The notes below the pieces were generated by a model. The model did no database searches. It saw only the letters and a list, made by a program, of their open reading frames with translations, and had not been told where the DNA came from. A stretch of DNA of 64,000 nucleotides, from positions 1 to 64,000 of the forward strand of contig CADCEC010000001.1 of the NCBI GenBank assembly GCA_902800395.1, in the 5' to 3' direction. Positions 206 through 60,097 of the stretch are shown one piece after another. The first letter of the stretch is position 1, and every line of letters begins with the position of its first letter. The position numbers and the translations under genes are program-made. This stretch comes from an uncultured Bacteroidota bacterium. GTDB taxonomy: Bacteria; Bacteroidota; Bacteroidia; Bacteroidales; P3.

Positions 206-1792
206 ATGTGTATGGAGTCTGTCGGACAATGGCTCACAACGGCGATAGAGACCGTGAACAGCTGGGTGTGGAGCCCGGCACTAGTAGGCTTATGTCTGCT
301 GGCTGGTCTCTATTTCTCGTTTCGCACCCGCTTCGTGCAAGTGCGGAGATTTTGCGAGATGGTTAGGCTGTTGTTCGGAGGTCAAAAAGGACCAAAAGGG
401 CAAAAGGAAGGTAAGAAGGTTGGCATCTCGTCATTCCAGGCTTTCGCCATGGCTTTGTCGGGCCGTGTGGGCACGGGAAATATCGTAGGTGTGGCCACGG
501 CCATTGGCTACGGTGGTCCAGGAGCCATCGTCTGGATGTGGGCGATAGCTTTCTTCGGAGCCGGCAGTGCCTTCGTGGAGGCTACGCTGGCACAGATATA
601 CAAGGAGGACCACAACGGACAGTTCCGTGGCGGTCCGGCCTACTATATCGAGAAAGGTCTCCGCAGCCCCTTCCTGGGTGCTCTGTTCGCCGTGCTGGCG
701 GCAGTAGCTTGCGGCATCTTCCTTCCGCCGGTGCAGTGCAATGGCATCGCCATCAGTAGTTCGCGCACCTTTGGCATAGAGACATGGGTGGTGGGCCTCA
801 TCGTGGCAGTGCTCTTCGGAATGGTAATCATTGGCGGCGTGAAGCGCATCGCCAATGTGGCAAAGATTGTGGCGCCCGTGATGGCGATCGTCTATGTCGT
901 CCTCTCGTTGGTGGTGTTGATTGTCCACTACGACATGGTACCCGACGTCTTCATGCGGATGCTGCGCGGCGCTGTGGGTGTCAATGAGGTGACGGGAGCC
1001 CTGCTGGGCACCACCATCGCCTGGGGCGTGAAACGCGGCATCTATAGCAATGAAGCAGGGCAGGGTACAGGTGCTATCGTGGCGGCGGCCGCCAAGGTGA
1101 GCCACCCTGTGAAGCAAGGCCTCGTACAGGCTTTCTCGGTCTATGTCGACACCCTCTTGGTATGCTCGGCCACTGCCATGATGATTCTGGCCTGCAAGAC
1201 CTACAATATCATCGATAGCGTGACTCATACCGCTGACGGCACCGTCGTTACCTACCTCCAGCAGAACCCTGGCGCCCACGAAGGAGAGCCCGTGGTGTTC
1301 TACACCACCGACGCCATCAGCACCGTGGTGGGACCTCAGGCAGGCGACATGATTATCTCTATAGCCCTCTTCTTTTTCGCCTTCACCACCATTCTAGCCT
1401 ATTATTACTATGCTGAGACCAACCTCATCTATATCTTCAACCGCTGGCGCCGCCGCATCTACAAGAAACATCCCGAACGGCTCGACGAACTGGAATGTCA
1501 AGATGCACATTTCGGCGACGACCGTGGCGAGAAGATTGCGATTTGGATCCTGCGCATCGACGTCATCTGTGCGGTCTTCATTGGCTCATTGGCGGGTACC
1601 GGTATTGTCTGGACTTTTGGCGATATCGCCGTTGGTGTGATGGCGTGGCTCAATATCGTCGCCATCCTCATCCTTTCGCCGAAGGCGCTGCGTACGCTCC
1701 GTGACTATGAGCGGCAGAAGAAAGAGGGCAAGGAGCCTGTCTTCAATCCTGAGAAGTTGAAAATAGAAGGGGTGGAGTATTGGAAGAGTTAA
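206..1792 (+). CDS. Sodium:alanine/glycine symporter (AGCS family)
   Basis: A 528-residue polytopic inner-membrane protein, normal length for the AGCS family, which imports alanine or glycine with sodium. Family hallmarks seen: ISSFQAFAMALSGRVGTGNI near residue 75, the GGPGAIVWMW segment, GGPAYYIEKGL, and GVKRGIYSNEAGQGTGAIVAAAA near residue 275. About ten hydrophobic helices are visible. Residues ~59-70 (GGQKGPKGQKEGKK) are encoded by an imperfect ~9-bp repeat (385-418) of a kind found elsewhere in this window between genes, and replace the usual short loop. ATG at 206 fits the promoter; ATG at 212 is an equally plausible start. Substrate preference cannot be told from sequence. Confidence 0.9.
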   Translation: MCMESVGQWLTTAIETVNSWVWSPALVGLCLLAGLYFSFRTRFVQVRRFCEMVRLLFGGQKGPKGQKEGKKVGISSFQAFAMALSGRVGTGNIVGVATAIGYGGPGAIVWMWAIAFFGAGSAFVEATLAQIYKEDHNGQFRGGPAYYIEKGLRSPFLGALFAVLAAVACGIFLPPVQCNGIAISSSRTFGIETWVVGLIVAVLFGMVIIGGVKRIANVAKIVAPVMAIVYVVLSLVVLIVHYDMVPDVFMRMLRGAVGVNEVTGALLGTTIAWGVKRGIYSNEAGQGTGAIVAAAAKVSHPVKQGLVQAFSVYVDTLLVCSATAMMILACKTYNIIDSVTHTADGTVVTYLQQNPGAHEGEPVVFYTTDAISTVVGPQAGDMIISIALFFFAFTTILAYYYYAETNLIYIFNRWRRRIYKKHPERLDELECQDAHFGDDRGEKIAIWILRIDVICAVFIGSLAGTGIVWTFGDIAVGVMAWLNIVAILILSPKALRTLRDYERQKKEGKEPVFNPEKLKIEGVEYWKS

Positions 1793-1818
1793 AAGTTAAT
1801 AGATTATAGTTAAGAGTT

Positions 1819-2121
1819 ATGCGTGACGTGAAGATAACAGCCATTCGCAAGGCCGACTACAAGGACCTGCAGGCACTCTATGAGAACCCTATAGAGCATA
1901 CCTGCGACGTGCAGGAAGGCCAAACGTGGGTCTCCCGTAGCGGACAGCGGCCCGAAGGGATGTGCGAGAGCGCGTGGGAGAGCATGCGGCCTTTCGTGGA
2001 GGCGCTGGCTCGTGGCGAGGGAAACTTCTATGACGGCTGGATGCGCAACCCCTACAGCGCGATGATCAGCTGCAACGATGGCTTCCGGCCCGTGAGTTTT
2101 CTGATAGAAAGGATGGAGTGA
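1819..2121 (+). CDS. TIGR04076-like small protein
   Basis: A 100-residue protein resembling the TIGR04076 family of unknown function. The matching features are the start VKITAIRKADYKDL, a Cys-containing segment with EGQTWVS, PEGMCESAWESMRPFV, and the ending WMRNPYSAMISCNDGFRPVSFLIER. Cys residues near positions 33, 58 and 87 could bind metal or act in redox chemistry, but this is inference. It sits 26 nt after the symporter in a repeat-rich gap (AGTTAAAAGTTAA type) and is probably cotranscribed with it. Confidence 0.7.
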   Translation: MRDVKITAIRKADYKDLQALYENPIEHTCDVQEGQTWVSRSGQRPEGMCESAWESMRPFVEALARGEGNFYDGWMRNPYSAMISCNDGFRPVSFLIERME

Positions 2122-2156
2122 AATGGAGTGAGAGGGAGTGAAATGGAGTGAAAGGA
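2116..2156 (+). repeat. Imperfect 10-bp tandem repeat
   Basis: Four imperfect copies of GGAGTGAAAT lie between the TIGR04076-like gene and the next one. The first copy overlaps the last codons of the gene, so its C-terminus (ERME) is repeat-encoded. Confidence 0.75.
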
Positions 2157-2190
2157 CAAATGTGACGATAAACAAACAAATAACAATATT

Positions 2191-4285: not shown

Positions 4286-4346
4286 GTCGGCGAATTAAGC
4301 GAATTTGGCGAATTTCTTTTTCGCATAATTCGCATAATTCGCCGAC
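4286..4346. repeat. TTCGC-family inverted repeat
   Basis: Arms GTCGGCGAATT and AATTCGCCGAC enclose ~9-bp-period units (GCGAATTnn, then ATTCGCATA). The same core occurs near 15470, 38335-38459, 39940-40110, 40268-40325, 42135-42170 and 56528-56560. Here it fills the gap between two genes. Confidence 0.8.
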
Positions 4347-7282: not shown

Positions 7283-8191
7283 ATGTCCTTCGTAGTTCAT
7301 AGTTCTTCCTTCTTACCTCTCATAAAGTCTATACGCCTCCGCACATTGCCTCTGTCGTTGGCAGGAGTGGTGTGCGGAGGTCTGCTTGCTATGGGTGGAC
7401 TTGGGAACGATGGCAGCTGGTGGACCTTCGCGCTGGTGATGTTGACGGCCTGCCTGCTGCAGATTCTTTCCAACCTCAGCAACGAGATGGGCGACCACCT
7501 CAGCGGTGTGGACGGCGAGGGTAGGGAAGGTCCCAACTACAGCATGACCGACGGTGGCCTTACCGTGAAGCAGATGTGGAAATCCATCAACACGATGGTC
7601 GTCCTCTGTGCTGTGAGTGGCCTCGCTATGCTCCTCGTGAGTTTCCCCCTTCTTAGTTCTTACTTCTTAATTCTTACTTTCCTTGGCGCCGCTGCAATCT
7701 GGGCGGCGACACATTATACGCTCGGAAAGGATCCCTATGGATATAAAGGACTGGGCGATTTGTTTGTCTTTATCTTTTTTGGGTTGGTGAGTGTGCTGGG
7801 TAGCTATTTCGTCATCGCCCACACCCTCGTCCCCGAGGCGTGGCTGCTCTGCCCGGCTGCCGGCATAGGACTCCTGAGTGTCGCTGTGCTCAACGTGAAC
7901 AATATCCGCGACATGGCTAGTGATGAAGGGCTAAGGAAGACCATTCCTCTGCGCATCGGCGCACGTGCTGCCCAGTGGTACCAGACGGTGTTGATTGTCG
8001 GCGGAACCGTCTTGTTATGCACCCCTGATTTCCGTTGGTGGCTCTGCTTCCCCGTCGGCGGCATTGCTGTTCATCTTTGGATGGTGTGGACCCGCAAAGG
8101 GAAACAACTCGACCCCGCATTGCCTATCCTCGTCATCAGCACCTTCCTCCTCGCCTTGCTGTATTCCCTCACATTTGTCTTATCTCCTTAA
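7283..8191 (+). CDS. menA: 1,4-dihydroxy-2-naphthoate polyprenyltransferase
   Basis: A 302-residue UbiA-superfamily membrane enzyme that attaches the prenyl chain to 1,4-dihydroxy-2-naphthoate in menaquinone synthesis. Family marks: IRLRTLPLSLAGVVCG at the start of the enzyme proper, the Asp-containing motif SNLSNEMGDHLSGVDGEGR (family N-x3-D-x3-D), and NVNNIRDMASDEGLRKTIPLR. Eight or so hydrophobic segments are present. The first ~15 residues (FVVHSSSFLPLI) and residues ~115-130 (FPLLSSYFLILTF) are encoded by TAGTTCTTACTTCTTA-like repeats also used as spacers in this genome, so both look like repeat-derived insertions tolerated in an N-terminal tail and a membrane helix. Confidence 0.93.
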   Translation: MSFVVHSSSFLPLIKSIRLRTLPLSLAGVVCGGLLAMGGLGNDGSWWTFALVMLTACLLQILSNLSNEMGDHLSGVDGEGREGPNYSMTDGGLTVKQMWKSINTMVVLCAVSGLAMLLVSFPLLSSYFLILTFLGAAAIWAATHYTLGKDPYGYKGLGDLFVFIFFGLVSVLGSYFVIAHTLVPEAWLLCPAAGIGLLSVAVLNVNNIRDMASDEGLRKTIPLRIGARAAQWYQTVLIVGGTVLLCTPDFRWWLCFPVGGIAVHLWMVWTRKGKQLDPALPILVISTFLLALLYSLTFVLSP

Positions 8192-8217
8192 CTCCTGTCT
8201 CCTTATCTCCTAAAAGT

Positions 8218-8946
8218 ATGCCTTATGACTTCGATAAAATAGCCCGCACCTATGACCGCCTGAACCGCGTGATGACCCTCGGCCTAGACCGCCGCTGGCG
8301 GAAGCGTGCGGTGAAGGAAGTGGAAAGTGGAAAGTGGCACCCCGAAGGGGAACTGAACACCATGGAAAAGAAAAACAATGCAGTGAAGAAAGTGGAAAGT
8401 GTGTTGGATGTCGCCTGCGGTACGGGCGATATGGCCGTCAGCCTCGCCGAACGAGGCTGCACAGTGACCGGCATCGACCTCAGCGAGGAAATGCTCGCCA
8501 TAGCCAAGCGGAAAGTGGAAAGCGGAAAGTGGAAAGTGGCTGACGCGGAGAACCTGCCGTTTCCCGATGACAGCTTCGACGCGGTGACTTGCGCTTTCGG
8601 CGTCCGCAACTTCGTCCACTTGGAGCAGGGCCTCTCCGAGATGCTGCGTGTCCTCAAGCCCGGCGGCCGCATGGTCATTCTCGAACTGGCCACCCCCGAC
8701 AGCCCTCTCATACGGCCTTTCTACAACCTCTACACCGAGCACATCATCCCTTGGCTGGGCAGCCGCATCGCCGGCAACCGCGAAGCCTACACCTACCTAC
8801 CCGAGAGCATCGCCCGCTTTCCAAAGGGCGAATCCTTTCTCGAAATAATTCAAAATTCAAAATTCAGAATTCATAATTCATGTCAGCGAAAGCTGACATT
8901 TGGTGTCTGCCGGATGTATGTGATAAACAAAGAGGCCGCTCGTTGA
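8218..8946 (+). CDS. menG: Demethylmenaquinone methyltransferase, with repeat insertions
   Basis: The 242-residue SAM-dependent UbiE/MenG methyltransferase does the last step of menaquinone synthesis. Seen: FDKIARTYDRLNRVMTLGLDRRWRKRAV, SAM motif I VLDVACGTGDMAVSLA, GIDLSEEML, NLPFPDDSFDAVTCAFGVRNF, and LRVLKPGGRMVILELATP. ATG at 8218 gives the correct family N-terminus; the frame is open further upstream inside menA and must not be used. Four in-frame stretches are repeat-encoded: VESGKWHPEGEL (~8313-8340), KKVESV (~8387), KRKVESGKWKVA (~8506-8540) and IIQNSKFRIHNS (~8845-8880). They lie in loops, and motif spacing elsewhere is intact, so the enzyme may still work. Confidence 0.93.
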   Translation: MPYDFDKIARTYDRLNRVMTLGLDRRWRKRAVKEVESGKWHPEGELNTMEKKNNAVKKVESVLDVACGTGDMAVSLAERGCTVTGIDLSEEMLAIAKRKVESGKWKVADAENLPFPDDSFDAVTCAFGVRNFVHLEQGLSEMLRVLKPGGRMVILELATPDSPLIRPFYNLYTEHIIPWLGSRIAGNREAYTYLPESIARFPKGESFLEIIQNSKFRIHNSCQRKLTFGVCRMYVINKEAAR

Positions 8947-13022: not shown

Positions 13023-13093
13023 CGAATAAATTGAAAAATGATAATTGAAAATTGAATTTTTTTAAAAATTTTTTTTATAATAAAAAAAAACAT

Positions 13094-13142: not shown

Positions 13143-15296
<2,154 letters not shown>

Positions 15297-15316
15297 TTAA
15301 AAATTAGCAAAGAATA

Positions 15317-15374
15317 AATGATTCCACTGCCTGGAGGGCCATAGGTCCCCAGGCAGGGAATTCATTCCCTGAAA
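15317..15374 (+). repeat. ~85-bp structured repeat, copy 1 (degenerate)
   Basis: AATGATTCCACTGCC core followed by GGTCCCCAGGCAGGG and the hairpin CAGGGAAT-TC-ATTCCCTG. Compared with the other copies it is 1 nt shorter in the GC-rich middle, which puts a TAG in the internal micro-ORF after eight codons. It lies 20 nt after mutB and may also act as a terminator-like structure. Confidence 0.9.
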
Positions 15375-15401
15375 AACGAAAACAATTAAAAAAGAACAAT
15401 A

Positions 15402-15460
15402 AATGATTCCACTGCCCCGGAGGGGCTTAGGTCCCCAGGCAGGGAATTCATTCCCTGAAA
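15402..15460 (+). repeat. ~85-bp structured repeat, copy 2
   Basis: 85 nt after copy 1, in direct orientation, with an intact GCCCC-GGA-GGGGC hairpin. The A-rich spacer between copies (AACGAAAACAATTAAAAA...) is itself conserved. Confidence 0.9.
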
Positions 15461-16571: not shown

Positions 16572-16680
16572 ATTATTACTTTTTTAATTATTTAATTCTT
16601 TGTTATTTTTTTGGAAGTTAAAGAAGTTAAAGAATTTATTGTCTGTCAACTATTATCTGTTATCTATTAACTATTATCTT

Positions 16681-17211
16681 TTAACTTTTAACTCTTAACT
16701 GCCTCAGCGCTTCCCATCTCGGGTCCGTCTCCTCTTCACTTTCCACTTTTCCCTCTTCACTTTCCACTTTAATATACTTCATCATCTCCGGGTCGCATTC
16801 TCCGTCGGGGTGTACGTGCTGCATGGGGATGCGTACGGCTACGTATTCATACAGCCACTGGGACAGGTCGATCTCGAAGGCGTTCTCCGGCAGCACCACC
16901 ACCTCTTCATCCTCGCAGGTCTCCGTGTCGCTGAAGCGCACGCAGAGGTGCTCCTCACCGCTTATCGGAATGGTCACCCTCCCCAGGCAGCGGTCGCAGG
17001 GGGTCTCCACCTCGCCGTTGAGCAAAAAAGTGAACATCAGCATGTGCTGCAGACGCTCCATTTTTGCCTCAATTTCCACTTTTCCACCCTCGATTTCGTC
17101 GTTTTTGTACCCTTCAAAGAACTCTTCGCCCAGCGTAAAGTGGTAGTTGTAACTACCTGACTTTAAGCCGCTAAAGCGAACTGTCATACTGTCATTCTGG
17201 CCCATTTTCAC
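16681..17211 (-). CDS. YceD/DUF177 family protein, repeat-modified tail
   Basis: A 176-residue member of the YceD (DUF177) family, involved in 23S rRNA accumulation in E. coli and plants and almost always upstream of rpmF, as here (109-nt gap). Family marks: VEIEAKMERLQHMLMFTFLLNGEVETPCDRCLGRVTIPI, with the Cys-x2-Cys pair, and the C-terminal DPRWEALRQL. Residues ~148-160 (KVESEEGKVESEEE) come from a GGAAAGTG-type repeat (16735-16775) inserted in frame just before the conserved ending, and the final RVKS plus stop come from an AGTTAAGAGTTAAAA repeat. Confidence 0.88.
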   Translation of the reverse strand: MKMGQNDSMTVRFSGLKSGSYNYHFTLGEEFFEGYKNDEIEGGKVEIEAKMERLQHMLMFTFLLNGEVETPCDRCLGRVTIPISGEEHLCVRFSDTETCEDEEVVVLPENAFEIDLSQWLYEYVAVRIPMQHVHPDGECDPEMMKYIKVESEEGKVESEEETDPRWEALRQLRVKS

Positions 17212-17492: not shown

Positions 17493-17557
17493 AATGAACC
17501 GAAAAAAGAGTGTTAAATATAAAATAAAAAAAAGTTAAAAACAATTAACAAAGAAGA

Positions 17558-17616
17558 AATGATTCCACTGCCCCGGAGGGGCACAGGTCCCCAGGCAGGG
17601 AATTCATTCCCTGAAA
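17558..17616 (+). repeat. ~85-bp structured repeat, copy 3
   Basis: Same core as copies 2 and 4-6, ending 27 nt before mntA. Its internal micro-ORF (ATG 17559) runs to a TGA at 17649-17651, overlapping the mntA start at 17644. Confidence 0.9.
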
Positions 17617-17643
17617 AACGAAAACAATTAACAGGTAATAGGT

Positions 17644-18259: not shown

Positions 18260-18321
18260 CAGTTAATAGATAAGAGATAATAGATAATAGTTAAAAGTTA
18301 AAAATTAAAAAAAGAACAATA
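18260..18321. repeat. AGTTAATAGATAA-type spacer repeat
   Basis: Imperfect 7-bp-period array (units like AGTTAAT, AAGTTAA). Similar arrays lie at 1793-1818, 16640-16700, 36050-36069, 37037-37066, 45172-45204, 46292-46322 and 58081-58110, usually directly after a stop codon. Confidence 0.8.
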
Positions 18322-18380
18322 AATGATTCCACTGCCCCGGAGGGGCTTAGGTCCCCAGGCAGGGAATTCATTCCCTGAAA
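18322..18380 (+). repeat. ~85-bp structured repeat, copy 4
   Basis: First of three tandem copies before the giant gene. Its micro-ORF of 29 codons (ATG 18323) ends in a TGA that overlaps the ATG of copy 5. Confidence 0.9.
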
Positions 18381-18407
18381 AACGAAAACAATTAAAAAAG
18401 AACAATA

Positions 18408-18466
18408 AATGATTCCACTGCCCCGGAGGGGCACAGGTCCCCAGGCAGGGAATTCATTCCCTGAAA
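18408..18466 (+). repeat. ~85-bp structured repeat, copy 5
   Basis: 86 nt after copy 4. Micro-ORF of 28 codons (ATG 18409) ends in a TGA overlapping the ATG of copy 6; the spacer differs from that of copy 4 by exactly 3 nt. Confidence 0.9.
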
Positions 18467-18490
18467 AACGAAAACAATTAACAAAGAAGA

Positions 18491-18549
18491 AATGATTCCA
18501 CTGCCCCGGAGGGGCTCAGGTCCCCAGGCAGGGAATTCATTCCCTGAAA
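18491..18549 (+). repeat. ~85-bp structured repeat, copy 6
   Basis: 83 nt after copy 5. Its micro-ORF reads through an A-rich leader and overlaps the start of the giant gene before stopping (TGA about 18630). Confidence 0.9.
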
Positions 18550-18607
18550 AAAAAATAAAAACAAAATTATTAATTAATTCATTTATTAACCAAAAAAATC
18601 AAACATT

Positions 18608-21600
18608 ATGCAAAAGTTTCTACGAACTTTGACCCTGATGGCACTGTTGTTTGTGCCGTGGGTCATGCAGGGACAGAACGCTGCAAAGGTGAGCGAGTAT
18701 GACGGCGAGGTGACCCGAGCCGCCTATACCTCGTTGACCGGTGCTAATGTGCAGACTTTGACTGGTGGTACAGGTACCATCGCCATGCAGTTTGCGCTGC
18801 CTTATGGCGAAGGCGCCGAAATCACCGGCAACGTCACTGTCAACCCCAACGGTAGCGTTACGCTGTCCGGCGACAAGACCGTTGCACCGCTGATGCTTTA
18901 CGGCAACACCTCCAATGCCTACAGCAACGGCTCTGTTCGTTACCTCAGCACCACCGAATCGCTGATTATCGAGTGGCGCAAGGTTGTCAACGGGACCAGC
19001 AGCTTCAGCTTCCAGCTGGCACTGTACCCCAGCGGAAACATCCAGTTCCGCTATGGTCCCATGACCCTCAACGGCACCACCAAGGTGCTTATCGGCATGT
19101 TGTATGCCGAAAACGACTACTATCGTGTGAGTACTAGCAGCAACCGCTACGACACCATCGTGCGTGTCACCACCGGGACCACCGCCCTTACCTCACGTGA
19201 CCTCAAGTCCGACTACTACTACATGTCCTCCCACATGGCCTACAACCAGGCCACCGGCGAGGGCGTCGTCTACACCTTCACTCAGCCCGCTTGCGTGAAG
19301 CCCGCTACGGCTTCCGTGAGCAACACCACCTATTGGGACACCCTCAACATCACTTGGGCCGCCTTCGCTGGCGCCACCCAGTATGAGGTCTTCTATACCG
19401 ACAATGCCAACATGGTCCCCACCGAGACCACTACCGGCACCATTGTTACCGCTTCCACCCCCAAGGTCCAGCTGACCAACGGTGACATCACCGGCTACCG
19501 TCTGGGTGGTCTGAACTACAACACCACGTATTATGTCTATGTGCGCAAGTACTGCGGCACCACCCCCTCGGGTTGGGCAGTTGCAGGCAACGCCAAAACG
19601 GCGAATATCACTACGAGCAATTTCACCCTCAGTAATGCCGGTGTGGCCAGTTGGACATTGACCAACTATCCCACTGTCGATGCTGTGCAGCTCTACTACA
19701 CCAAAACACAGGCTGCCAACGTGGCCGCATTGGCTAACGCCGCACCGCAGGTTACCGTTCTCAAGAGCGACAGCCTGAAGTATGATATAGCTCTGCGTCA
19801 GACGTTGGAGTCCGCTACCAAGTATTATGTCTACTACCGTCTGCGTTACACCCAGGGCGGCACTACCAAGTATGCTTGGGTGGACCTCACCGGTAGCAGC
19901 AGCAGGAATTTCACCACGCCTTGTGGCGCTCTCGCTGCCAGCGACCTTCCCCTTATTCAGGACTTCGAAGGCGACTGGCCGGGCTGCTGGAATGTCTTAG
20001 AGAGTTATAGTAGTTATCCTTATGTGTATAACTCTGCTTCGTACAACCACACTGCCAACGGCTCGAAGTCGCTGTATATGTATGCTTATGGATATTATGG
20101 TACATCTAGTGCATACAATACCATCGCTTCTCAGGCCATCCCGCTGGCGGGTGACAATATCTATGTCTCGTTCTGGTACAAGTCTTCCACCAGCAGTTAC
20201 GATTATCTGAAAGCCGGTGTGATGACCGACTTGGAGGATATGACCACCTTCCAGCCTTTGGTAACCATTAACGACCACAGCGGCAACTATGCCAAGTACG
20301 AGTTCTCTACCGAAGCACTTGATGCCACCAAGACCTATTATGTAGTCTTCCGTTACTATTCTTACTATGGCTATTCCGCTTACCTCGACGACATCACCGT
20401 CAAGGCTATCCCCACCTGCCCGAATCCTACCGGCATCGCCGCTACGGGTCAGGGTGTGATTACCTGGACGGCTGGTACCAACAACACCAGCTATGACCTC
20501 CTCTGGGGTGAATCCGGTTTCAACCCTGAGACCGCTGGCACCCTTATCGAGGACGTCAACGAGGCTACCTATACCTTCACCGCCGGAACACTGACCGAGT
20601 TTGACGACTATGACGTCTATGTCCGCGCCCATTGCTCGGCCACCAGTGAGACGTCAGAGGAATGGGTTGGTCCGGCTAGCTTTTTGTATTTCTCAGGTTC
20701 TACCTACATCATGGGCACCGACGCCGATGTTAGCACCTGTAACGCCATCATCTTTGATGAGGGTGGCGCCAGTGGACAGTATGAGAGTTCCAGAAGCCAG
20801 ACGATGATTATCCGTCCGGGCGCTGCCAATAACTGGGTACGCCTGCAGGGTTCGTATAATACCGAAAGCAATTGGGACTGGATTTATGTCTACGACGGTG
20901 TCGGTACCTCTGGCACCCAACTTTGCAAAGTCAGTGGAGAAAGTGAACTTGATTTTACCTCATCGGATCCCACGGGCGCTCTGACTCTCAGGTTCACCTC
21001 TGATGGTTCTGGTACAAGAGATGGATTCCAGTTCTTTGCTACCTGTATCCCGATGCCCACCTGCTTTGTTCCCACGAACCTCAACGCCGTGCCCGGCACG
21101 GGCAACAACGCCAACAGCGCATCGCTGAGCTGGCAAGAGAACAGCGCTACTCCCGCCACCAGCTGGGAGGTGATGTATTCCAACGGCACCGATACCATGA
21201 GCGTCATCGCCGACAACAACACCGCCTTCACCCTCGGTTACCTCGAGGTGGGCACCGCCTACACCTGGAAGGTCCGCAGCCTCTGCTCCACCGACGACCA
21301 GTCCGACTGGAGCAGCGACGGTAGCTTCAACACCAACTGCATCAACAATACCACCATCCTCAGTCAAGATTTTGAGAGCGGCTTGGGTGGTTGGACGGAA
21401 CAGATTGTTGGCACCCGCGACTCCGAAGTGGGTATCAATTCTAGTGCAAAACACGGCGGCAATAATGGCTACCGTTTCTCCACATGGAACACTTCGGGAG
21501 ATCAGACGTATTACCTCATAAGCCCGGAGATTACAACAACTACCAGCGTTGATTTAGACTTCTGGTATCAACTTTCTTCAACATCCGGTAATGATGAACT

Positions 21601-37039: not shown

Positions 37040-37095
37040 TAGATAATAGATAAAAGATAATAGTTATGGGGAGTGAGGGGGGCAAAGCAAGAACA

Positions 37096-38307
37096 ATGCT
37101 GAAACGTCTGCAGAGAAAGACCCTTATTCCTGCGCAGATTGTCGGCTACGCCGCCACCCTCCTTGTCGGCGTCACCATCGTCATGCTCTCCGTGCAGCTC
37201 TATGCCGACATCCGGCCCGTGCTCACCCAGCAGTCCGACGTCTTCCGCAACCACGCCGTGACCCTCAACAAGACCGTCTCCACCCTCAACAGTCTCGACA
37301 AGCAAGGCATCTACTTCTCCGACGATGAGCTCGCCGATATCGCCGCACAGCCCTTCGTGAAGAATGTGGCGCCCTTCCGCAGCTCCTCCTTCTCCGCCTA
37401 TGCCGCCATCTCCCTCGGCCCCCAAACCCTCCGTACCGACCTCTTCTTCGAGAGCATCCCCGACGAATATATCGACGTCCGCAGCGACCAGTGGCACTGG
37501 GACACCACTAGCGCATTATCGCAATCAAGCAATCAAGCAATCCCCATCATCATCCCCGAAGACTACCTGAATCTCTACAATTTCGGCTTCGCCGAGAGCC
37601 AGGCGCTGCCTGTCATCTCGCAGGGTGCCATCGAGAGCGTTGTCTTCTCCCTGCGCCTCTCGGGGCGCGGCCGTACACAGACCTTCGTGGGCCATATCGT
37701 GGGCTTCTCGGGCAAAATCAACACTATCCTCGTCCCCGACAGCTTCCTTCGCTGGGCCAACGAGACCTTCGGTGACAAACCCTCCGGCAGTCCCTCGCGC
37801 CTCCTGGTGGAGTTCAGCGACGCCTCCGATGCCCGCATCCCCGCCTACATCGAGTCCCACGGCTACACCGTCAAGCAGGACGAGCTGGAGAACAGCAAGA
37901 TGATCTTCTTCTTCCACCTCGCCATCCTCTTTGTCATCGTCGTGGCACTCATCATCATCGTCCTCTCCGTGGCTTTCATCATCATGAGCCTCAATGTCAT
38001 CGTCCAGCGCAACCGCGACCTCTTCTGCAACCTCTATAATATAGGCTATGCGCCACGCCAGATTGCGCGCTACTACCAGCGCATTGTGGCTCTCATCACC
38101 GTTGCCGACATCGCTGTGGCCACGGCATTGGCGCTCTTCCTGAGAAAAATATACATCGCGAAACTCGCCACCCTCTTCACCATCGACGGCAGCGCCCTGC
38201 CGCTCCTCGTCACCGCGGCCCTCACGGCCCTCCTCCTCGCCGGCCTCTATGCCCTCCTCATCCTCCGCACCATCCGCCGCACCGTGGAACCCACGGCGAA
38301 AGCCTGA
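37096..38307 (+). CDS. FtsX-like ABC transporter permease
   Basis: A 403-residue membrane protein with one N-terminal helix (~12-35), a periplasmic domain of ~230 residues, and three C-terminal helices (~275-310, ~335-355, ~370-395): the FtsX/LolC/MacB permease plan. ATG at 37096 is preferred because the upstream ATG (37066) lies in a GATAATAGTTATGG spacer repeat. Residues ~137-148 (LSQSSNQAIPII) come from a CAATCAAG 8-bp repeat (~37508-37545) inserted in the periplasmic domain. A candidate ATPase lies 0.9 kb away but on the opposite strand. Confidence 0.8.
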   Translation: MLKRLQRKTLIPAQIVGYAATLLVGVTIVMLSVQLYADIRPVLTQQSDVFRNHAVTLNKTVSTLNSLDKQGIYFSDDELADIAAQPFVKNVAPFRSSSFSAYAAISLGPQTLRTDLFFESIPDEYIDVRSDQWHWDTTSALSQSSNQAIPIIIPEDYLNLYNFGFAESQALPVISQGAIESVVFSLRLSGRGRTQTFVGHIVGFSGKINTILVPDSFLRWANETFGDKPSGSPSRLLVEFSDASDARIPAYIESHGYTVKQDELENSKMIFFFHLAILFVIVVALIIIVLSVAFIIMSLNVIVQRNRDLFCNLYNIGYAPRQIARYYQRIVALITVADIAVATALALFLRKIYIAKLATLFTIDGSALPLLVTAALTALLLAGLYALLILRTIRRTVEPTAKA

Positions 38308-38459: not shown

Positions 38460-39240
38460 GATACTCCGCCGTGGGGCCGAAGTCATAGCCGTCGACGACG
38501 ACGCGGTTCTTCGTCGTGCGGCCGAGGAAGCAGCAGTTCAGCCGTGCGTCGTCCATCTTCAGCAGGAAGGCGTCGTCCTGCCGTTCCTCCAGGGCCACCA
38601 GGTAGCGTCCCCGCTCCTCGCCGAAGAGGAAGGCATCCAGCCGCACCTCCCGCGGCACCAGGATATCGAAACCTAGCGGTGCAGTAAACGCCAGCAGCGA
38701 GCAGAACAGTCCTCCCTGTTCCACCGGCGCACTCCCCAGCACCAGCTCCCCCTCCCGCAGCGCCCCTAAAATCATCTCTATATACTGGCAGTCCTCCTCA
38801 TGGCCTCCCGTGGCCATGGGCGCCTCCACCAGGTGCAGACAGCGCCGCGCATACTCCGACCCCGCGAACTCGCCACTGACATTGCCCACCATATAGAGGA
38901 GGAGACCCGTGCTAAAACCTGTTGCTCTAGACAATCTAGTTGCACTAGAAAATCTAGAATCTCTAGAAAGCTCCTTCGCCAGCTCCACGCACTCCTTCAC
39001 CCGCGGTTCGCGGATGCTCTTGTGGTCGGCCTGGCCGGAGTAGAGGTAGTCGTTGCGCTCCACCACGTGGTGCTGGCCACGGAGCCAGCCGTAGAGGCTC
39101 TGCTGCTTGCCGTTGCTCTCCCACATAGCCAGAAGGGTCGACAGTTCGTCGATGGTGGGCTGCCGACCTATGATGTCGAGCACCTCGTCGAACGCCTGCC
39201 GCGAGATGCCCATCGCTTCCGCTGTTTCGAAATCAACCAT
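38446..39240 (-). CDS. Shrunken PurL (FGAM synthase)-like protein
   Basis: A 264-residue protein resembling pieces of phosphoribosylformylglycinamidine synthase II. Residues 1-45 (MGISRQAFDEVLDIIGRQPTIDEL...MW) match the PurL N-terminal region, and ~115-264 match its second ATP-grasp-like AIRS-C half: GNVSGEFAGSEYARRCLH, ELVLGSAPVEQGGLFCSLLAF, then DAFLFGEERGRYLVAL. The catalytic middle is missing, and the usual SAHDVSDGG is SAPVEQGG, so normal FGAM synthase activity is unlikely. Between the halves, RDSRFSSATRLSRATGF is encoded by a TCTAGA-type repeat (38928-38975). It starts 3 nt after the ABC ATPase gene and is probably cotranscribed. Could be a regulatory paralogue or decaying gene. Confidence 0.6.
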   Translation of the reverse strand: MVDFETAEAMGISRQAFDEVLDIIGRQPTIDELSTLLAMWESNGKQQSLYGWLRGQHHVVERNDYLYSGQADHKSIREPRVKECVELAKELSRDSRFSSATRLSRATGFSTGLLLYMVGNVSGEFAGSEYARRCLHLVEAPMATGGHEEDCQYIEMILGALREGELVLGSAPVEQGGLFCSLLAFTAPLGFDILVPREVRLDAFLFGEERGRYLVALEERQDDAFLLKMDDARLNCCFLGRTTKNRVVVDGYDFGPTAEYLSAN

Positions 39241-39243: not shown

Positions 39244-39888
39244 TTATAGCCGAAGGGTGGCGTCGAAGGGGAGGAGGGGGGTGGGGTCGAGGGTGGTGAG
39301 GAGGAGGGCGGCATGCTGGGCTTCGACCTCGTGGAGTATCATGTCGGCCACGAGGGCCGCGGTGTCGCGGTCGAGGTGGGAGAAGGGCTCGTCGAGGAGG
39401 AGAAACTCGAAAGGTTGGCAGAGGGCGCGTACGGCGGCGACACGCTGGCGCTGGCCCAGGGAGAGGGTACGCAGGGGCTGGTGCTTCTTGCCGGCGGGCA
39501 GCAGGGCGTCGAGCATGGCCTCGATGTCGGCGTCGGACTTATGGCCGGTGAGGCTGTTCTTGATCTGCACGTTCTCGAGGGCTGTGAGCTCGGGGAAGAG
39601 GCAGAGGTCCTGGAAGAGGTAGCTGAGGTGGCGGAGGCGGAGATTGAAAGTGGAAAGTGGAAAGTGGAAAGTGGAGAGTGGAGAGTGGAAAAATATTTGG
39701 CCGTCGTAGTGGAGGTTGGAGCCGTAGATGAAGTTGAGGAGGGAGGTCTTGCCGTGGCCGGAGCGGGCGCAGATCATGTACTTCTTGCCCTGCTCGAAGG
39801 TGACGGAGGGCTGGAGATAGATGTCGGAGCCGGCGACTTCCGACTCCGACATATAGGACGGCTTAAGATTTCTGAGTTCGATGGTCAT
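39244..39888 (-). CDS. ABC transporter ATP-binding protein with repeat insertion
   Basis: A 214-residue ATPase. Walker A ARSGHGKTSLLNFIYG (~38-53), Q-loop near YLFQDLCLFPELTALENV, signature LSLGQRQRVAAVRAL and Walker B FEFLLLDEPFSHLD are present. The H-loop His is not obvious (TTLDPT in its place). Residues ~69-81 (SPLSTFHFPLSTF) are encoded by the GGAAAGTGGAAAGT repeat read on the other strand (39645-39690), inserted between Walker A and the Q-loop. Likely partner: the FtsX-like permease at 37096, although it is convergent. Confidence 0.85.
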   Translation of the reverse strand: MTIELRNLKPSYMSESEVAGSDIYLQPSVTFEQGKKYMICARSGHGKTSLLNFIYGSNLHYDGQIFFHSPLSTFHFPLSTFNLRLRHLSYLFQDLCLFPELTALENVQIKNSLTGHKSDADIEAMLDALLPAGKKHQPLRTLSLGQRQRVAAVRALCQPFEFLLLDEPFSHLDRDTAALVADMILHEVEAQHAALLLTTLDPTPLLPFDATLRL

Positions 39889-45166: not shown

Positions 45167-45204
45167 GATTAGTTAACAGTTAATAGTTAATAGTTAACAG
45201 TTAT

Positions 45205-45751: not shown

Positions 45752-45770
45752 TTTGAGATATTTGAAATGG

Positions 45771-45813
45771 TAGTTAAAGAAGTTAAAGGAAGTTAAAGAA
45801 GTTAAAGACAAAT
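45771..45813. repeat. 9-bp-period AAGTTAAAG repeat
   Basis: Four imperfect AAGTTAAAG units, and related units again at 45868-45890, upstream of rpsF. No -7 element is evident in this gap. Confidence 0.75.
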
Positions 45814-45920
45814 GTTCCGGCAGACGGTAATGTCTTTAACTACTAGCGCGAAGCGCGATAACTTCTTGAATTCTTTAACTTCAAAAAAAGTAATAATAAC
45901 AAAAAAACAAACAAACAGTA

Positions 45921-46283: not shown

Positions 46284-46329
46284 GGCCCAGTTAAGAGTTA
46301 ATAGTTAAAAGTTAAAAGTTAAGATTACA

Positions 46330-49930: not shown

Positions 49931-51726
<1,796 letters not shown>

Positions 51727-52416
51727 ATGAAGATTGGAGTTATCATTGCCATGGACATCGAGTATCGCCAGATGCGCGATGCCATTGGGGGCGACACCGG
51801 TCGCCTGGGAAACAACGACATAGTATTGTGGCAGTGTGGCATCGGCAAGGTGAATGCCGCCGTGGGCACCATGCGCCTCATCCAGGAGCATCATCCCGAC
51901 GCCATCCTCAGCACCGGCCTCGCCGGCGGCATCGACCCGCAGATGCGGGTGGGCGATATCCTGGCTGCCACGCAGTGTGTGTACCACGACGTGGACTGCG
52001 GCGGCATCGTCTCTGGCGGCGTCTGCCCCCTGGGGCAGGTGCAGGGGTTGCCCGCCCGATATGATGCCGACCAGCTGCTGCTCGACCACGCCTTGAAAGT
52101 GGAAAGTGGAAAGAGGAAAGCGGAAAGTGAGCGCCTGGTGACTGGCCTCATCTGCACGGGCGACCAGTTCATCACTGACCGTGAGCGGCAGAACACCATC
52201 AAGCGCAACTTCGTCGACGGCCTGGCCTGCGATATGGAGAGCGCCGCCATCGCCCAGACGTGTTATCTGATGAAGGTGCCCTTCATGAGTCTGCGCGTCA
52301 TCAGTGACACCCCCGGCCGCACCGACGACCATGCGGCGCAATGGAAAGATTTCCTCGGCGCCATGTGCGACCGGTCGTTCCAGTTTGTAAAAGGTTTTTT
52401 GGAATCATGGAAGTAA
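51727..52416 (+). CDS. mtnN: MTA/SAH nucleosidase, with repeat insertion
   Basis: A 229-residue Pfs-type enzyme that splits S-adenosylhomocysteine to S-ribosylhomocysteine and adenine, and also methylthioadenosine. Motifs: KIGVIIAMDIEYRQM, GIGKVNAAVGTM, STGLAGGIDP, GDQFI, the purine/ribose-binding CDMESAAIAQ and the catalytic Asp in VISDTPG. Residues ~122-136 (LKVESGKRKAESE) come from the GGAAAGT repeat (52095-52130). It overlaps luxS by 10 nt, the enzyme for the next step. Confidence 0.95.
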   Translation: MKIGVIIAMDIEYRQMRDAIGGDTGRLGNNDIVLWQCGIGKVNAAVGTMRLIQEHHPDAILSTGLAGGIDPQMRVGDILAATQCVYHDVDCGGIVSGGVCPLGQVQGLPARYDADQLLLDHALKVESGKRKAESERLVTGLICTGDQFITDRERQNTIKRNFVDGLACDMESAAIAQTCYLMKVPFMSLRVISDTPGRTDDHAAQWKDFLGAMCDRSFQFVKGFLESWK

Positions 52417-52901: not shown

Positions 52902-52932
52902 AGGGAGATAAGCACCGATTTACAATTGAATT

Positions 52933-52969
52933 ACCATTGTTTAACCATTTTAAATGGTTAAACAATGGT
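52933..52969. repeat. Perfect 18-bp inverted repeat built of 11-bp units
   Basis: 18-bp arms around a single central base (52951), with additional TTAAACAATGG units at 11-bp period continuing right to ~52985. Same design as the palindrome at 36199 with unrelated sequence. Confidence 0.85.
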
Positions 52970-53031
52970 TAAACAATGGTTGAACAGAGATTTAAATGAC
53001 TAAGGATTAGGTGATTGTGAGGATGTAGAAA

Positions 53032-55320: not shown

Positions 55321-55380
55321 TTATTTTGTTTCTAGTTCTTCTAGTTGTTCTAGATTATCTAGTTTTTCTAGATTTTCTAG
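55321..55380. repeat. 9-bp-period TTCTAGATT repeat
   Basis: About six imperfect TTCTAGWTT units fill the gap between hydG and the TM1266-like gene. The same family is inside the PurL-like gene at 38928-38975. Confidence 0.85.
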
Positions 55381-56565: not shown

Positions 56566-58080
56566 ATGTATAATAAGGAGCATGGATTATATATAGCGCA
56601 CTGTGATGATGGTGCGCTTTCCATTTGTGGACGTATGGCAAATCGCCACGGGCTCATCGCTGGCGCCACGGGTACTGGCAAGACCGTCACCCTACAGACG
56701 ATGGCCGAGACCTTCTGCCAAGCGGGCGTGCCCTGCTTCATGGCCGACATGAAGGGTGACCTCAGTGGTATCTCGCAGCCCGGAAAAGGGGAGGGGTGCC
56801 CGGTGCGGTTCTACGATGTCTTCGGCGAGCAGGGCCATCCCATCCGTGCCACGGTGAGTCAGATGGGACCACAACTGCTCTCGCGCCTGATGGGCTTGAA
56901 TGAGACACAGGACGGCGTGCTGAACATCGTGTTCCGCATCGCCGACGAGCGTGGTCTGATGCTACTCGACGTGAAGGACCTGCGGTCGATGCTCGACTAT
57001 GTGGGCAAGCATGCCAAAGAGTATACCACCAAGTACGGCAATATCTCGTCCGCCACCATCGGTGCCATCCAGCGTGCGCTGCTGCAGCTGGAGAGCCAGG
57101 GGGCCGAGCGCTTCTTCGGCGAGCCGAGTTTCGATATCTTCGACCTACTGCAGACCGAAGGCGGAAAAGGTGTGATGAGTGTGTTGGCTGCCGACAAGCT
57201 GATGTTGCAGCCCAAACTCTATTCGACTTTCCTGCTGTGGCTGATGAGCGAGCTCTACTCCACGCTGCCCGAAGTGGGCGACCAGGAGTTGCCGAAACTG
57301 GTTTTCTTCTTTGACGAGGCCCACATGCTCTTCGACGGCACGTCGAAGGCCATGGTAGACAAGATAGAGCAGGTGATACGCCTGATACGTTCCAAAGGTG
57401 TGGGCATCTACTTCGTTACGCAGAATCCCACGGACATCCCCGAGAGCATCCTGGGGCAGTTGGGCAACCGCGTACAGCATGCCCTGCGCGCCTATACTCC
57501 CAAGGATCAGAAGGCCGTGAAGACGGCTGCCGACACCTTCCGTCCCAACCCCAAGTTCAAGACCGATGAGGTTATCACGGAGCTGGCGACCGGCGAGGCG
57601 CTGGTGAGCCTGCTCGACGAGAAGGGCGCTCCCGGCGTGGTACAGCGGGCCAAAGTACTCTTCCCACAGAGCCAGGTGGGCGCCATTAGCGAGGAGCAGC
57701 GCCGCGCCATCATCCGCGGCAGCCGCATCTCGGGGAAATATGACACCATGGTGGACAGGGAGAGCGCCTTCGAGGTGCTGCTGAGGGAAGGAGAAGAGGC
57801 TGTGACGGTTCAGAATAATCAGAGTGTTCCGAGTAATCAGAAAACTCAGAAAACTCAGAGTGATACGAAGAAAAAAAGTCTCCTCTCGAAGATTATCAAG
57901 GCCATCATCACGGCTGTGACGGCCACGCTGGCGACCCTTGTGGGCACCTTCGTGAGCGACAAGGTGAGTGGCAAGAAGACCAAGAGCCGCACCTCGGCAA
58001 CGCAGCGGGTGGTGAAGAACGCCACGTCGGCTGCCACACGCACGTTGACGCGCGACATACTGGGAAACCTTATAAAATAG
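56566..58080 (+). CDS. HerA-like (DUF853/YjgR) ATPase
   Basis: A 504-residue protein of the HerA/FtsK-like DUF853 family. Walker [20 protein letters not shown] (~31-47), [13 protein letters not shown], Walker [16 protein letters not shown], and [29 protein letters not shown] are typical. The C-terminal 90 residues differ: a polar stretch [19 protein letters not shown] is encoded by an ATCAGAAAA/CTCAGAAAA 9-bp repeat (~57812-57865), followed by a hydrophobic helix and a basic tail. Cellular role is uncertain; DNA translocation or membrane-associated ATPase function is inferred. Confidence 0.9.
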
Positions 58081-58527: not shown

Positions 58528-58561
58528 TGGTTAACGTTTAACGAATGGTATGTCAACAATA

Positions 58562-58585
58562 AACGGGGGTTTCAAAACCCCCGTT
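58562..58585. terminator. Bidirectional terminator
   Basis: Stem AACGGGGGTTT / AAACCCCCGTT with 2-nt loop between two convergent genes. Confidence 0.88.
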
Positions 58586-58588
58586 CTT

Positions 58589-60097
58589 TTATTTCTCTGG
58601 TGCGAGCAGCAGGATGCCTGTGTCGCCGTTCCATGTGGTCAGGAGTTCGCGGAATTTGGCGTATTCCTCCACGGGGATGAGGGTTTTCTCGATCTTGATG
58701 CGACGGATGACCTTGATTTTGTCGCCTTTCTGGCGGATGCTGACCTCCACGCGTCCGATGCCGTCATGGCTGGCCTTACGGATGATGTCGCCACCGACGA
58801 GTTTCAGCCCTTTGCTGATGGAGAAGGTCTGCTCAACGTTGATGTCGCAGGCCGTAGTGCTCAGGGGGGTGGTGCGTACATAGGGGAGCCGGTCGACATT
58901 GGGGAGCGACAGGGGGTGGGGGATGGCGGGGATGTGGAGAGAGAAGAAGCCGTCTTCGAGGGCCACGATAGAAGCTTCCTCCTCGCCGGTGTATTCGAAG
59001 GTATCCACCTCGTCGCGGGCTTTGCCGTTGATGTCGATAGGCTCTTTGCGACGCACGTTGAGGCGGTACTCGACGGTGTCGATGAAGACACCCACCTCGT
59101 CCATGTTGTCGCCTATGACGCGGGCGCGGTAGCCCTCTTTGTTGAGGATGGCGGCGAGGAGCACGGCTTTGTCGATGGCGGTGCCGCAGCCTGTCTGCCA
59201 GGTGACGTCGGGGGTGGAGTGGACGTAGCCGAGGTGTGAGGGATGGATGTCGTTGAGGTGGATGTTGTCGACCACGAAGTCACGGACTTTGGCAACATTC
59301 ATACGCTCGTCGGTGCCGGTGATTACCTGCCCCATGGCGTCGGAGGCGGCGGCGAAGGGTTTCTGGTCGAAAGCGGGGGTATGTTCGGGGAGGCTGTTGT
59401 AGAGGTGCAGGGTGGGGACGATGTCGGCGGGCATGTAAGGCTCGCGGGGCGCCTGCGGCATGTTGACGAGGGCGAACTGGAGCGTTTTGACAGCGTTGTC
59501 AGTGTTGATTCTCGAGGTGCGGGTCACGCCGCCTTCAGGCAGGTACTGGTTGCCGAGGAAATCCCATTTCACATCCATGTCGTTGGGATAGTTCACAACC
59601 ACCTCGAGTTTCTCCACGGGGCATTCGCGCTGCAGGGGGAGGGTCTCATAGAGGAGGTTATAGCGGCGGTGGATGGTGTAGTCCACCACGATGACGCAGC
59701 CAAGCTCCATGCCGGTGTGCACCATGGCGAGTTCGCGCATGTGGTTGAAGCGACCGCAATCGGCGCACTCGGAGGGGAGCTGGTAGACGAAGGCGTTCTG
59801 TGGCATCTCCACACGGGTGCCGTCGAGCTGGCGGGTATAGACCTCGTTGATGGTGAGTTCCTCGAGGTCGGGATTGTAGACCACGAAAGTCTCGCCCTTG
59901 TCGGCGTAAGCCGTGAGGGCTCGGTTGCGGAGAATCTGCACCTCGTGGCGGTAGTGGTAGTCGCTGCTGCCGTCGGCATTCAGCGTCCACTCATGGCGCA
60001 GGAGCTTGAAGACGGCATCGGGCTGCTGGGCTTTCAAAGTGGAAAGCGGAAAGTGGAAAGTGGAAAGCAGGGCTGCTATAAAAAGTATCTTTTTCAT
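58589..60097 (-). CDS. Secreted DUF3857/transglutaminase-like protein
   Basis: A 502-residue protein: DUF3857 N-terminal domain (HEWTLNADGSSDYHYRHEVQILRNRAL) and a transglutaminase-like part with QTGCGTAIDKAVLLAAILNKEGYRARV. The Cys is kept (GCGTAIDKA), while the later His/Asp positions are not evident. The signal peptide contains STFHFPLSTLKAQ, encoded by the GGAAAGTGGAAAGT repeat (60036-60068), so the repeat forms part of the exported leader. Probably paired with the next gene. Confidence 0.8.
   Translation of the reverse strand: MKKILFIAALLSTFHFPLSTLKAQQPDAVFKLLRHEWTLNADGSSDYHYRHEVQILRNRALTAYADKGETFVVYNPDLEELTINEVYTRQLDGTRVEMPQNAFVYQLPSECADCGRFNHMRELAMVHTGMELGCVIVVDYTIHRRYNLLYETLPLQRECPVEKLEVVVNYPNDMDVKWDFLGNQYLPEGGVTRTSRINTDNAVKTLQFALVNMPQAPREPYMPADIVPTLHLYNSLPEHTPAFDQKPFAAASDAMGQVITGTDERMNVAKVRDFVVDNIHLNDIHPSHLGYVHSTPDVTWQTGCGTAIDKAVLLAAILNKEGYRARVIGDNMDEVGVFIDTVEYRLNVRRKEPIDINGKARDEVDTFEYTGEEEASIVALEDGFFSLHIPAIPHPLSLPNVDRLPYVRTTPLSTTACDINVEQTFSISKGLKLVGGDIIRKASHDGIGRVEVSIRQKGDKIKVIRRIKIEKTLIPVEEYAKFRELLTTWNGDTGILLLAPEK

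Follow-up and report, generated by a model that had tools for sequence, protein, structure and literature searches.

Short arrays of a tandemly repeated heptamer are known from several groups of bacteria. The available part of one report describes TAACTGA arrays in Beggiatoaceae, Cyanobacteria and five Bacteroidetes, located upstream of and within genes with no mechanism evident (PMC4679880). Arrays of GGGNATC occur in Xanthomonas and Nostoc according to the available part of another, in which the Xanthomonas units consist of conserved and free positions (GGGANTN), most repeats of two Xanthomonas species lie between the same genes with varying length and sequence, and no detailed literature on such heptamers is said to have existed (PMC4692102). 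As far as the available text of a third survey goes, enrichment of short tandem repeats is absent on average in bacteria, and Bacteroidota genomes and genes are dense in them (PMC12699852). Here we describe arrays of 7–11-nt units in the genome of an uncultured member of Bacteroidales (GCA_902800395.1), starting from a stretch of 64,000 nucleotides, referred to below as the window (contig CADCEC010000001.1, positions 1 to 64,000). The same units lie at dozens of loci of this genome, and from species to species a given gene site or gap can hold arrays of different families.

Units of about seven nucleotides are joined head to tail at many loci above chance, as in the heptamer arrays and in the cyanobacterial STRR repeats, which we take to be a comparable class. 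In the parts of the published accounts that are available, the known heptamer arrays also resemble those described here in being short, strain-specific and sometimes inside open reading frames (ORFs), and are mostly found in gaps, often adjoining start codons. Unlike them, the present genome combines many families with periods of 7, 8, 9, 10 and 11, its arrays often lie open-frame inside conserved genes and have other families at the corresponding slots of sister species, and a 51-bp cassette is inserted in phase with the arrays. A reading of the window made from its letters alone (the sequence-only reading) had called the repeats an unexplained expansion; heptamer arrays as a class are in print in the available parts of PMC4679880 and PMC4692102, although without a shown mechanism. 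The class is known and its in-frame behaviour is paralleled in Rickettsia; what appears new is the combination with other families at fixed slots, for which literature searches covering few subscription papers gave no Bacteroidales or rumen precedent beyond the papers cited here.

In REP/RAYT systems, short palindromes are moved by RAYT-type Y1 transposases. Similarly, a short palindrome is present in the cassette and Y1_Tnp genes are common in the genus, but no requirement for Y1_Tnp was found and the arrays are mostly direct repeats. Rickettsia palindromic elements are, like the cassette, small, dispersed and fused in frame into conserved protein genes; they are 105–146 bp long with a long stem-loop and terminal inverted repeats, whereas the cassette has 51 nt and no long stem-loop, and often lies within heptamer arrays of a species-dependent unit (PMC2229807, available part). 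BrickBuilt elements of Porphyromonas gingivalis, which are miniature inverted-repeat transposable elements (MITEs), likewise represent tandem repeats in dispersed elements of Bacteroidetes, but their 23-nt units are accompanied by a leader, a tail and terminal inverted repeats, unlike the arrays here (PMC4596501, available part).

Abundance, unit structure and placement of the arrays

The genome (G000) is 2.41 Mb in 21 contigs, of which C1 begins with the window. The host genus is apparently a rumen-dwelling group of uncultured Bacteroidales; the titles of the best 80 LuxS relatives name, in nearly every case, uncultured Bacteroidales, Bacteroidetes, Bacteroidaceae or Prevotella, and many of them include the name of a rumen sample; the closest among these 80 is UBA2939 (96% identity). 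Tandem Repeats Finder gives 121 rows for the window, among which all eight unit families named in the sequence-only reading are located at the following positions.

GGAAAGT family: 8318, 8506, 39646, 52095, 60036
AGTTAAT family: 1787, 18256, 37029, 45171, 46289, 58076
AATTCAA family: 8847
CAATCAAG family: 37521, 51403
TTCTAGATT family: 38921, 55329
GCGAATTnn family: 4289, 38341, 39945, 40015, 56534
CCTTAAGGA family: 51673
CTCAGAAAA family: 57837

In C1:1-284000, 154 non-overlapping arrays (score at least 40, period up to 15) are found by the same program, whereas ten local dinucleotide shuffles yield 3–11 (mean 5.8). The excess is greatest at periods 7 (56 arrays against 0), 8 (14 against 0.1), 9 (27 against 0.1) and 11 (13 against 0.9), and periods 12, 14 and 15 are likewise above the shuffles. 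Periods 7, 8, 9, 10 and 11 coexist in this one genome with more than ten different units. The arrays are short, mostly of 3–6 units and at most 11 in a strict or 13 in a loose scan. Nor are they confined to the window, since GGAAAGTGGAAAGTGGAAAGT (three GGAAAGT units) has 60 exact matches genome-wide, part of which are the same array matched again in an overlapping register. Among 129 gaps of at least 40 bp, 48 hold an array, and arrays make up 6% of non-coding bases; a role as saturating gap filler was rejected on these figures.

Each unit has a fixed core and certain variable positions, and in most families neighbouring units resemble each other no more than expected by chance. In a sample of 457 kb, partly picked around GGAAAGT matches, interior AGTTAAT units vary at positions 3 and 7 (28 and 21 of 60) and elsewhere 0–3 times, and interior TTTAACC units at positions 1 and 6 (13 and 12 of 26) and elsewhere 0–1 times. 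Variation along the unit is uneven in seven of eight families (p 2e-32 to 0.0065), AGGTGAA being the exception (p 0.17); the unevenness of GCGAATTnn and TTCTAGnnT is partly built in, as n was unconstrained in the patterns used to find them. Variation is also uneven in 17 genic GGAAAGT arrays (p 0.013), where codon selection is excluded because a 7-nt period visits all codon positions. Likeness of neighbours at the free positions equals chance in AGnTAAn (0.200 observed, 0.198 shuffled), CAATCAnn (0.233, 0.211), GGAAAGn (0.698, 0.670), GCGAATTnn, nTTAAnC, CTAG and GGTGAnA, in a test in which several families are small, two further families have only one and three arrays, and the CTAG family, being its own reverse complement, is counted on both strands. 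An earlier version of the test agreed, save that TTTAACC neighbours were less alike than chance.

Placement was counted for 151 arrays on C1, leaving out a gene of 5795 aa (18608-35995), with a simple purpose-written hexamer gene caller whose calls are approximate (226 genes, coding fraction 0.88). Sixteen of 18 GGAAAGT arrays and all five CAATCAnn arrays lie inside called genes, as do 3/5 of GGTGAAA, 2/6 of AGGAGATA, 1/2 of TAAGGACC, 2/11 of AATTnnA, 2/10 of AGTTAAn and 1/10 of TTAACnn, and none of the 18 arrays of GCGAATTnn, TTGTTCAGTAT, ATGGTTAAACA, GAAGTTAAA and GTTGTTCGTTT; 65 arrays fall outside the named patterns (38 inside genes, 17 in gaps, 10 at edges). None of the six frames of a perfect GGAAAGT run contains a stop, whereas every frame of a perfect AGTTAAT run does, and the division into genic and gap families is largely due to stop-free versus stop-bearing units. 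AGTTAAn arrays often finish in AGTTATG, the ATG of which is the start codon of the next ORF (1819, 37066, 58111); this upstream placement is seen for AGTTAAn, whereas GGAAAGT and CAATCAnn arrays are mostly genic.

Pfam-supported hosts of open-frame arrays are UbiE, CTP synthase, MTA/SAH nucleosidase, an ABC transporter ATPase, HerA helicase, YceD and a DUF3857 protein. Entry of several families into conserved genes in frame is thus confirmed, UbiE, CTP synthase and HerA being among the Pfam-matched hosts. That the arrays are always in frame is true of families that are stop-free in the frame used, but five families are never genic and AGTTAAn and TTAACnn rarely so, and the CCTTAAGGA array at 51673, which starts at the CTP synthase stop codon, is outside that gene, in the gap. 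The arrays arise both with and without added length. The array in CTP synthase adds a net 27 nt (seven full-length relatives) and that in MTA/SAH nucleosidase 12 nt (most of 23 relatives). Around UbiE 8506, where some native gene sequence is already unit-like, the distance between anchors is equal or 1 aa greater in seven of nine aligned relatives and 7 aa greater in those of G025 (L133) and G004 (L136), which have a TTTCAAC-type array; the array at UbiE 8847 likewise adds no net length in comparison with most relatives. The earlier claim that insert length must have been selected fits the net insertions but not these two UbiE sites, at which native codons are replaced with no net change relative to most relatives.

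The arrays of the window to which the comparisons refer are listed below (coordinates, strand, description).

8308..8337, +, GGAAAGT array left of the cassette, in UbiE
8338..8388, +, 51-bp cassette CACCCCGAAGGGG...AGTGAAG in UbiE, in frame, with GGAAAGT units on both sides
8389..8401, +, GGAAAGT units right of the cassette, in the same phase as the left units (lag-7 matching)
8506..8539, +, GGAAAGn array in UbiE, replacing native codons length-neutrally (relatives aligned)
8847..8880, +, AATTCAA array in UbiE, length-neutral (relatives aligned)
39646..39691, +, GAAAGTG array, in frame in the ABC transporter ATPase gene (39244-39888, minus strand)
37521..37542, +, CAATCAAG array, in frame in ORF 37066-38307 (FtsX-like match below the Pfam cut-off)
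38921..38969, +, CTAG-core 9-mer array in ORF 38446-39240 (minus strand; no Pfam match)
51403..51437, +, CAATCAnn array in the GATase match of CTP synthase (27 nt longer than in seven full-length relatives)
52095..52129, +, GAAAGTG array in the MTA/SAH nucleosidase gene (12 nt longer than in most of 23 relatives; none in G036)
57837..57859, +, TCAGAAAAC 9-mer array in the HerA gene (CTAG-core 9-mer array there in G036)
60036..60067, +, AAAGTGG array in the N-terminal part of the DUF3857 gene (58589-60097, minus strand; other units in L051 and L058)
16572..16770, +, AGTTAAn array at the yceD end and CACTTTC array within yceD
2113..2155, +, GGAGTGAAAn 10-mer array in a gap (7-mer arrays of other units in G036)
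4289..4342, +, GCGAATTnn inverted arrays with bounds GTCG/CGAC (missing in G036)
45171..45204, +, AGTTAAY array between tRNA-Leu and tRNA-Gly (AGTTKAG units at the same slot in G036)
46289..46322, +, AGTTAAn 7-mer array (AGTTAAAGA-type 9-mer array in G036, equal total gap length of 54)
55329..55380, +, CTAG-core 9-mer array (core kept in G036, spacer varies)
52930..52986, +, ATGGTTAAACA 11-mer inverted arrays after luxS
51673..51717, +, CTTAAGGAC 9-mer array in the CTP synthase-nucleosidase gap

Some further repeats were seen beside these arrays. ACAAATG or its complement is found as an end motif of arrays of period 10 (2113-2162), 8 (8169-8218) and 9 (45767-45815), as well as at sample loci, hinting at a common array boundary. 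An 86-bp palindrome-bearing unit is present about three times in tandem and at two nearby places (15292-15460, 17516-17633, 18303-18551), adjoining AGTTAAn-like sequence upstream of the ORF 18608-35995, whose 5795 codons are made of internal repeats (354-bp period and others).

Arrays at corresponding slots of related species

The genus comparison covers 41 genomes, 37 of which are sampled by only 16–40 kb each, and the array-rich named relatives are nearly all metagenome assemblies. Three consecutive GGAAAGT units are found in 11 of 61 genomes searched (this one included), all of one genus; the backward-read control gives 62 matches in G036, one of the 11. In samples of 284–386 kb the leading unit is AAAGTGG in G000, AAAATTG and ACTCATC in G002 and AACTACTGAAG in G023; the leading units of G000, G002, G023 and G016 differ, AAAATTG and AAAGGTG being common to G000 and G002. 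The density of period-7 to -9 arrays ranges from zero to 52 per 100 kb across the 41 genomes, the array-poor G003, G005 and G029 being represented by only 20–40 kb each. In 381 kb of G016, listed as 100% complete, there are 0 arrays of period 7 and 35 of period 11, and therefore the unit length of seven that characterizes the heptamer class does not hold for these repeats, whose periods run from 7 to 11.

Arrays of orthologous genes share sites more often than control places do, but rarely units. When a genic array is paired with an aligned ortholog, the ortholog has an array at the same site in 18 of 75 pairs, while only 21 of 1091 control places within these genes have one (Fisher p 1e-12); the figure is 16 of 73 pairs without two native-looking coding repeats (L048:6370, L042:18804), whereas only 3/75 pairs have the identical unit (score thresholds 34 for relatives' and 38 for own arrays; four duplicate relatives dropped). 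Counted by array, an alignment with a relative was possible for 35 of 107 genic arrays; for 14 of these the relative has an array at the site, in two cases of the same unit. A SAM-dependent methyltransferase carries CAATCAnn in G000 and heptamer-type stretches in G002, an alanine-racemase-like protein GGAAAGT and the AATTTTC type, and NqrA CTAG 9-mers and heptamers, respectively; at the DUF3857 site (60036) other units are found in L051 and L058.

G036 is the closest relative found and the sole one with nucleotide-level synteny (78–93% DNA identity in the main syntenic blocks). Thirty intervals were compared with it, of which 26 were anchored; by slot assignments made by eye, seven have the same family, four another family and eight no clear array, and seven were unscored (native coding repeats, gaps already counted, or unclear). 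The four slots with another family are 2113, 13028, 16572 and 57837. At 16572 a CACTCC-type array replaces AGTTAAn next to a left flank of about 60 identical nucleotides, and at 57837, in HerA, the TCAGAAAAC 9-mers of the window correspond to a CTAG-core 9-mer array. The 7-mer array at 46289 is matched by an AGTTAAAGA-type 9-mer array in a gap of equal length. In the gap between tRNA-Leu and tRNA-Gly (45171), AGTTAAC/T units of the window are AGTTTAG/AGTTGAG in G036 across the whole array; AGTTKAG has 18 matches at nine places in G036 and 3 matches in G000 (backward-read control 10 and 2). At 55329, in four aligned units counted by eye, 16/16 core and 11/20 spacer positions are identical (Fisher p 0.002). 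The GCGAATTnn inverted arrays (4289) and the nucleosidase array (52095) are missing in G036. Among other relatives, the CTP synthase-nucleosidase gap is short in six of eight that have both genes, and a 7-mer inverted array is present there in L054.

Two side observations concern the same slots. After luxS, facing forward and reverse GATAGAnnn 9-mer arrays in L051 and L062 replace the ATGGTTAAACA inverted arrays of the window. Near slot 13028 (G036:C7, L299) the gap measures 489 nt, and GCTCCCGAAGGGAGC palindromes recur in it beside an array of the GCGAATT type.

A 51-bp cassette in phase with the arrays

The cassette (17 codons) is present in G000 in nine copies of 51 nt each, all in frame within Pfam-matched ORFs and in two different reading frames. 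The hosts are UbiE, a CCA-adding-type PolyA_pol, GNAT, FAD-dependent, GHMP kinase (presumably IspE), DUF4954, Dus, NUDIX and DsbD-type proteins, and in PolyA_pol, Dus, NUDIX and UbiE the cassette is within the Pfam match itself. It is absent from UbiE relatives and from two NUDIX relatives, absence having been seen for these two hosts only. UbiE of G025 (L133) and G023 (L137) has other palindrome-bearing in-frame inserts, one of them at the site of the window's cassette. In the genus, cassette-related sequence is found in eight of 41 genomes (22 matches). Of the 21 matches aligned, with ends set by the motif and L368 dropped as its motif was unlocated, 19 are 51 nt long, one 50 and one 52; at least three of the 12 aligned copies outside G000 have no spanning ORF.

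Where heptamer arrays surround the cassette, it keeps their phase irrespective of the unit, which is GGAAAGT in G000, GGTGAAA, AATTGAA or AATTAAG in G002, and AATTGAA in G015. In the thirteen copies judged heptamer-flanked, excision of 51 nt leaves the period-7 phase intact (78/91 lag-7 matches across 13 junctions), compared with 17–41/91 when 1–3 nt fewer or more are excised, and a target duplication across these junctions could only have measured 0 or 7n nt. If a cassette of 17 codons lands in phase within arrays that lack stops, this would account for its in-frame position in G000. A diverged subfamily (G008, G009, G011, G034, G015, G002) is without array flanks.

The cassette contains a CCCCGAAGGGG palindrome, and an 86-nt stretch including flanks folds at -10.3 kcal/mol with short stems. 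No terminal inverted repeats were seen by eye, and the combination of terminal inverted repeats and target-site duplication that marks MITEs is not found. The analogy with Rickettsia palindromic elements drawn in the sequence-only reading is apt for this cassette, in frame in nine genes, and not for its size or stem-loop. An origin from 23S rRNA was rejected: Rfam gives no LSU match in four cassette loci, and comparison with the partial 23S gene of this genome gives only short, chance-like matches, a test that is incomplete in that the gene lacks the relevant 23S part. This gene (L377-L379; C8 ~116659-118000) is the only 23S rRNA match in G000, partial (model 2049-2912) and of low score, with none in seven other relatives. 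Its 3' part spans 430 nt, against 258 nt in a G036 match just under the cut-off, and holds internal 41–49-bp repeats, suggesting small inserts in the rRNA of G000.

Origin of the arrays

The explanation to which we incline, tentatively and with rather less than full conviction, is that the genus harbours a continuing process writing short, degenerate arrays of 7–11-nt units, in which patches are copied in trans into permissive slots. Arrays would be made and re-made by short patches copied from other arrays, possibly via template switching or ectopic annealing primed by a few core bases. A permissive slot (gap, signal peptide, linker or surface loop) might thereby be overwritten by the dominant unit of the species, selection would then purge outcomes with stops or a wrong net length, and slippage may trim or extend arrays without being their main source. 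Multi-unit runs common to different arrays exceed shuffles for GGAAAGT (64 against 29 pairs, run of at least 4) and weakly for GCGAATTnn (p 0.03); copying of whole arrays between loci was rejected for want of a general shared-run signal, and with so little trace of it the copied patches would need to be of about one or two units.

Several observations weigh against such copying. The comparisons are between species only, and no event of array change is seen in them. The array at 10315 is identical in G036 and seven of the 26 anchored slots retain their family, so that not every slot turns over, and sharing of sites may reflect independent events at tolerant places. Neighbours of TnTCAAn (the TTTCAAT family) are alike, as from slippage (0.541 against 0.266, p<0.001), and perhaps also those of the overlapping AATTnTC (p 0.057). 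Shared multi-unit runs are not above shuffles for AGTTAAT, TTTAACC, TTTCAAT and CAATCAAG; two of ten AGTTAAn arrays are called genic although the perfect unit is closed in all frames; and profile searches of the 41 genomes for RVT_1 and Y1_Tnp revealed no array-making machinery.

A DNA- or RNA-binding protein that needs a core every 7–9 nt, with drifting spacers, would account for the fixed core and free spacer, for example at 55329, and binding of S1, Csp or Csr to TAACTGA arrays has been proposed by MacGregor, according to the available part of that paper (PMC4679880). Selection for binding sites is nonetheless unlikely, as it does not account for other families at the same slot, the genome has more than ten units, the core differs across the whole array between sister species (45171), and GGAAAGT arrays are genic at the rate of the coding fraction. 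Plain replication slippage, by which chance doublets of 7–11 nt grow locally and composition bias makes units recur, accounts for the tandem form, for the alike neighbours of the TTTCAAT family and for arrays beside native sequence that is already unit-like (the UbiE 8506 region); the available part of PMC4692102 cites a known excess of heptamers in bacteria and a hypothesis that links slippage to the footprint of the polymerase. As one of the sources proposed in the sequence-only reading it is, however, still less likely, since one unit lies at dozens of loci in one genome but is rare or missing in most sister genomes, likeness between adjacent units does not exceed chance in most families, which argues against it, the arrays have few units and relatives have another family in the same slot.

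Mobile or templated sources are less probable again. Elements moved by transposases, such as RAYT-type Y1 transposases acting on REP-like units and leaving arrays as ends or scars, would agree with the dispersed, often array-flanked cassette and its palindrome, and with the palindromes in the G036 gap at 13028. Y1_Tnp is found in 29/41 genus genomes and correlates weakly with period-7 density (rho 0.32, p 0.043 uncorrected), but the two-group test is not significant (p 0.20), the array-rich G014 (9 period-7 and 9 period-8 arrays in 40 kb) has no match, constant array ends were not noticed, and the phase kept after cassette removal leaves room for target duplications of 0 or 7n nt only. A Y1/RAYT transposase as sole source was rejected on the weak correlation and on G014, and the broader transposase explanation is improbable. 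By analogy with telomerase, a trans-acting writer with a species-specific template might overwrite slots, genes included, and a change of template would convert arrays genome-wide; we regard this as a long shot. Cyclic copying of a short RNA by a templated writer such as a telomerase-like reverse transcriptase would suit species-specific units acting in trans, short degenerate arrays and the array-wide unit difference, but is very improbable: RVT_1 (PF00078) matches in 16/41 genomes and not in 25, is unmatched in the array-rich, 98%-complete G002 and G023, and does not track period-7 density (rho 0.015), figures that concern RVT_1 only. On these grounds a reverse transcriptase was rejected as array source, and the retro-priming once suggested for the repeats finds no support. 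An artefact of assembly or binning is scarcely credible although array-bearing named relatives are nearly all metagenome-assembled, since long reading frames stay open through the arrays and synteny and orthologous slots agree between separate assemblies. Moreover, arrays of 20–55 bp are shorter than the usual read.

Whatever process writes the arrays, the genus offers a dense natural experiment, in which syntenic slots of sister species carry differing units and open-frame arrays lie in housekeeping enzymes, and the source of heptamer-type arrays thereby becomes testable by comparison of strains. In its behaviour, the in-phase cassette of 51 bp is a Bacteroidales counterpart of a Rickettsia palindromic element. 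The arrays also suggest that conserved proteins can absorb repeat-derived loops.

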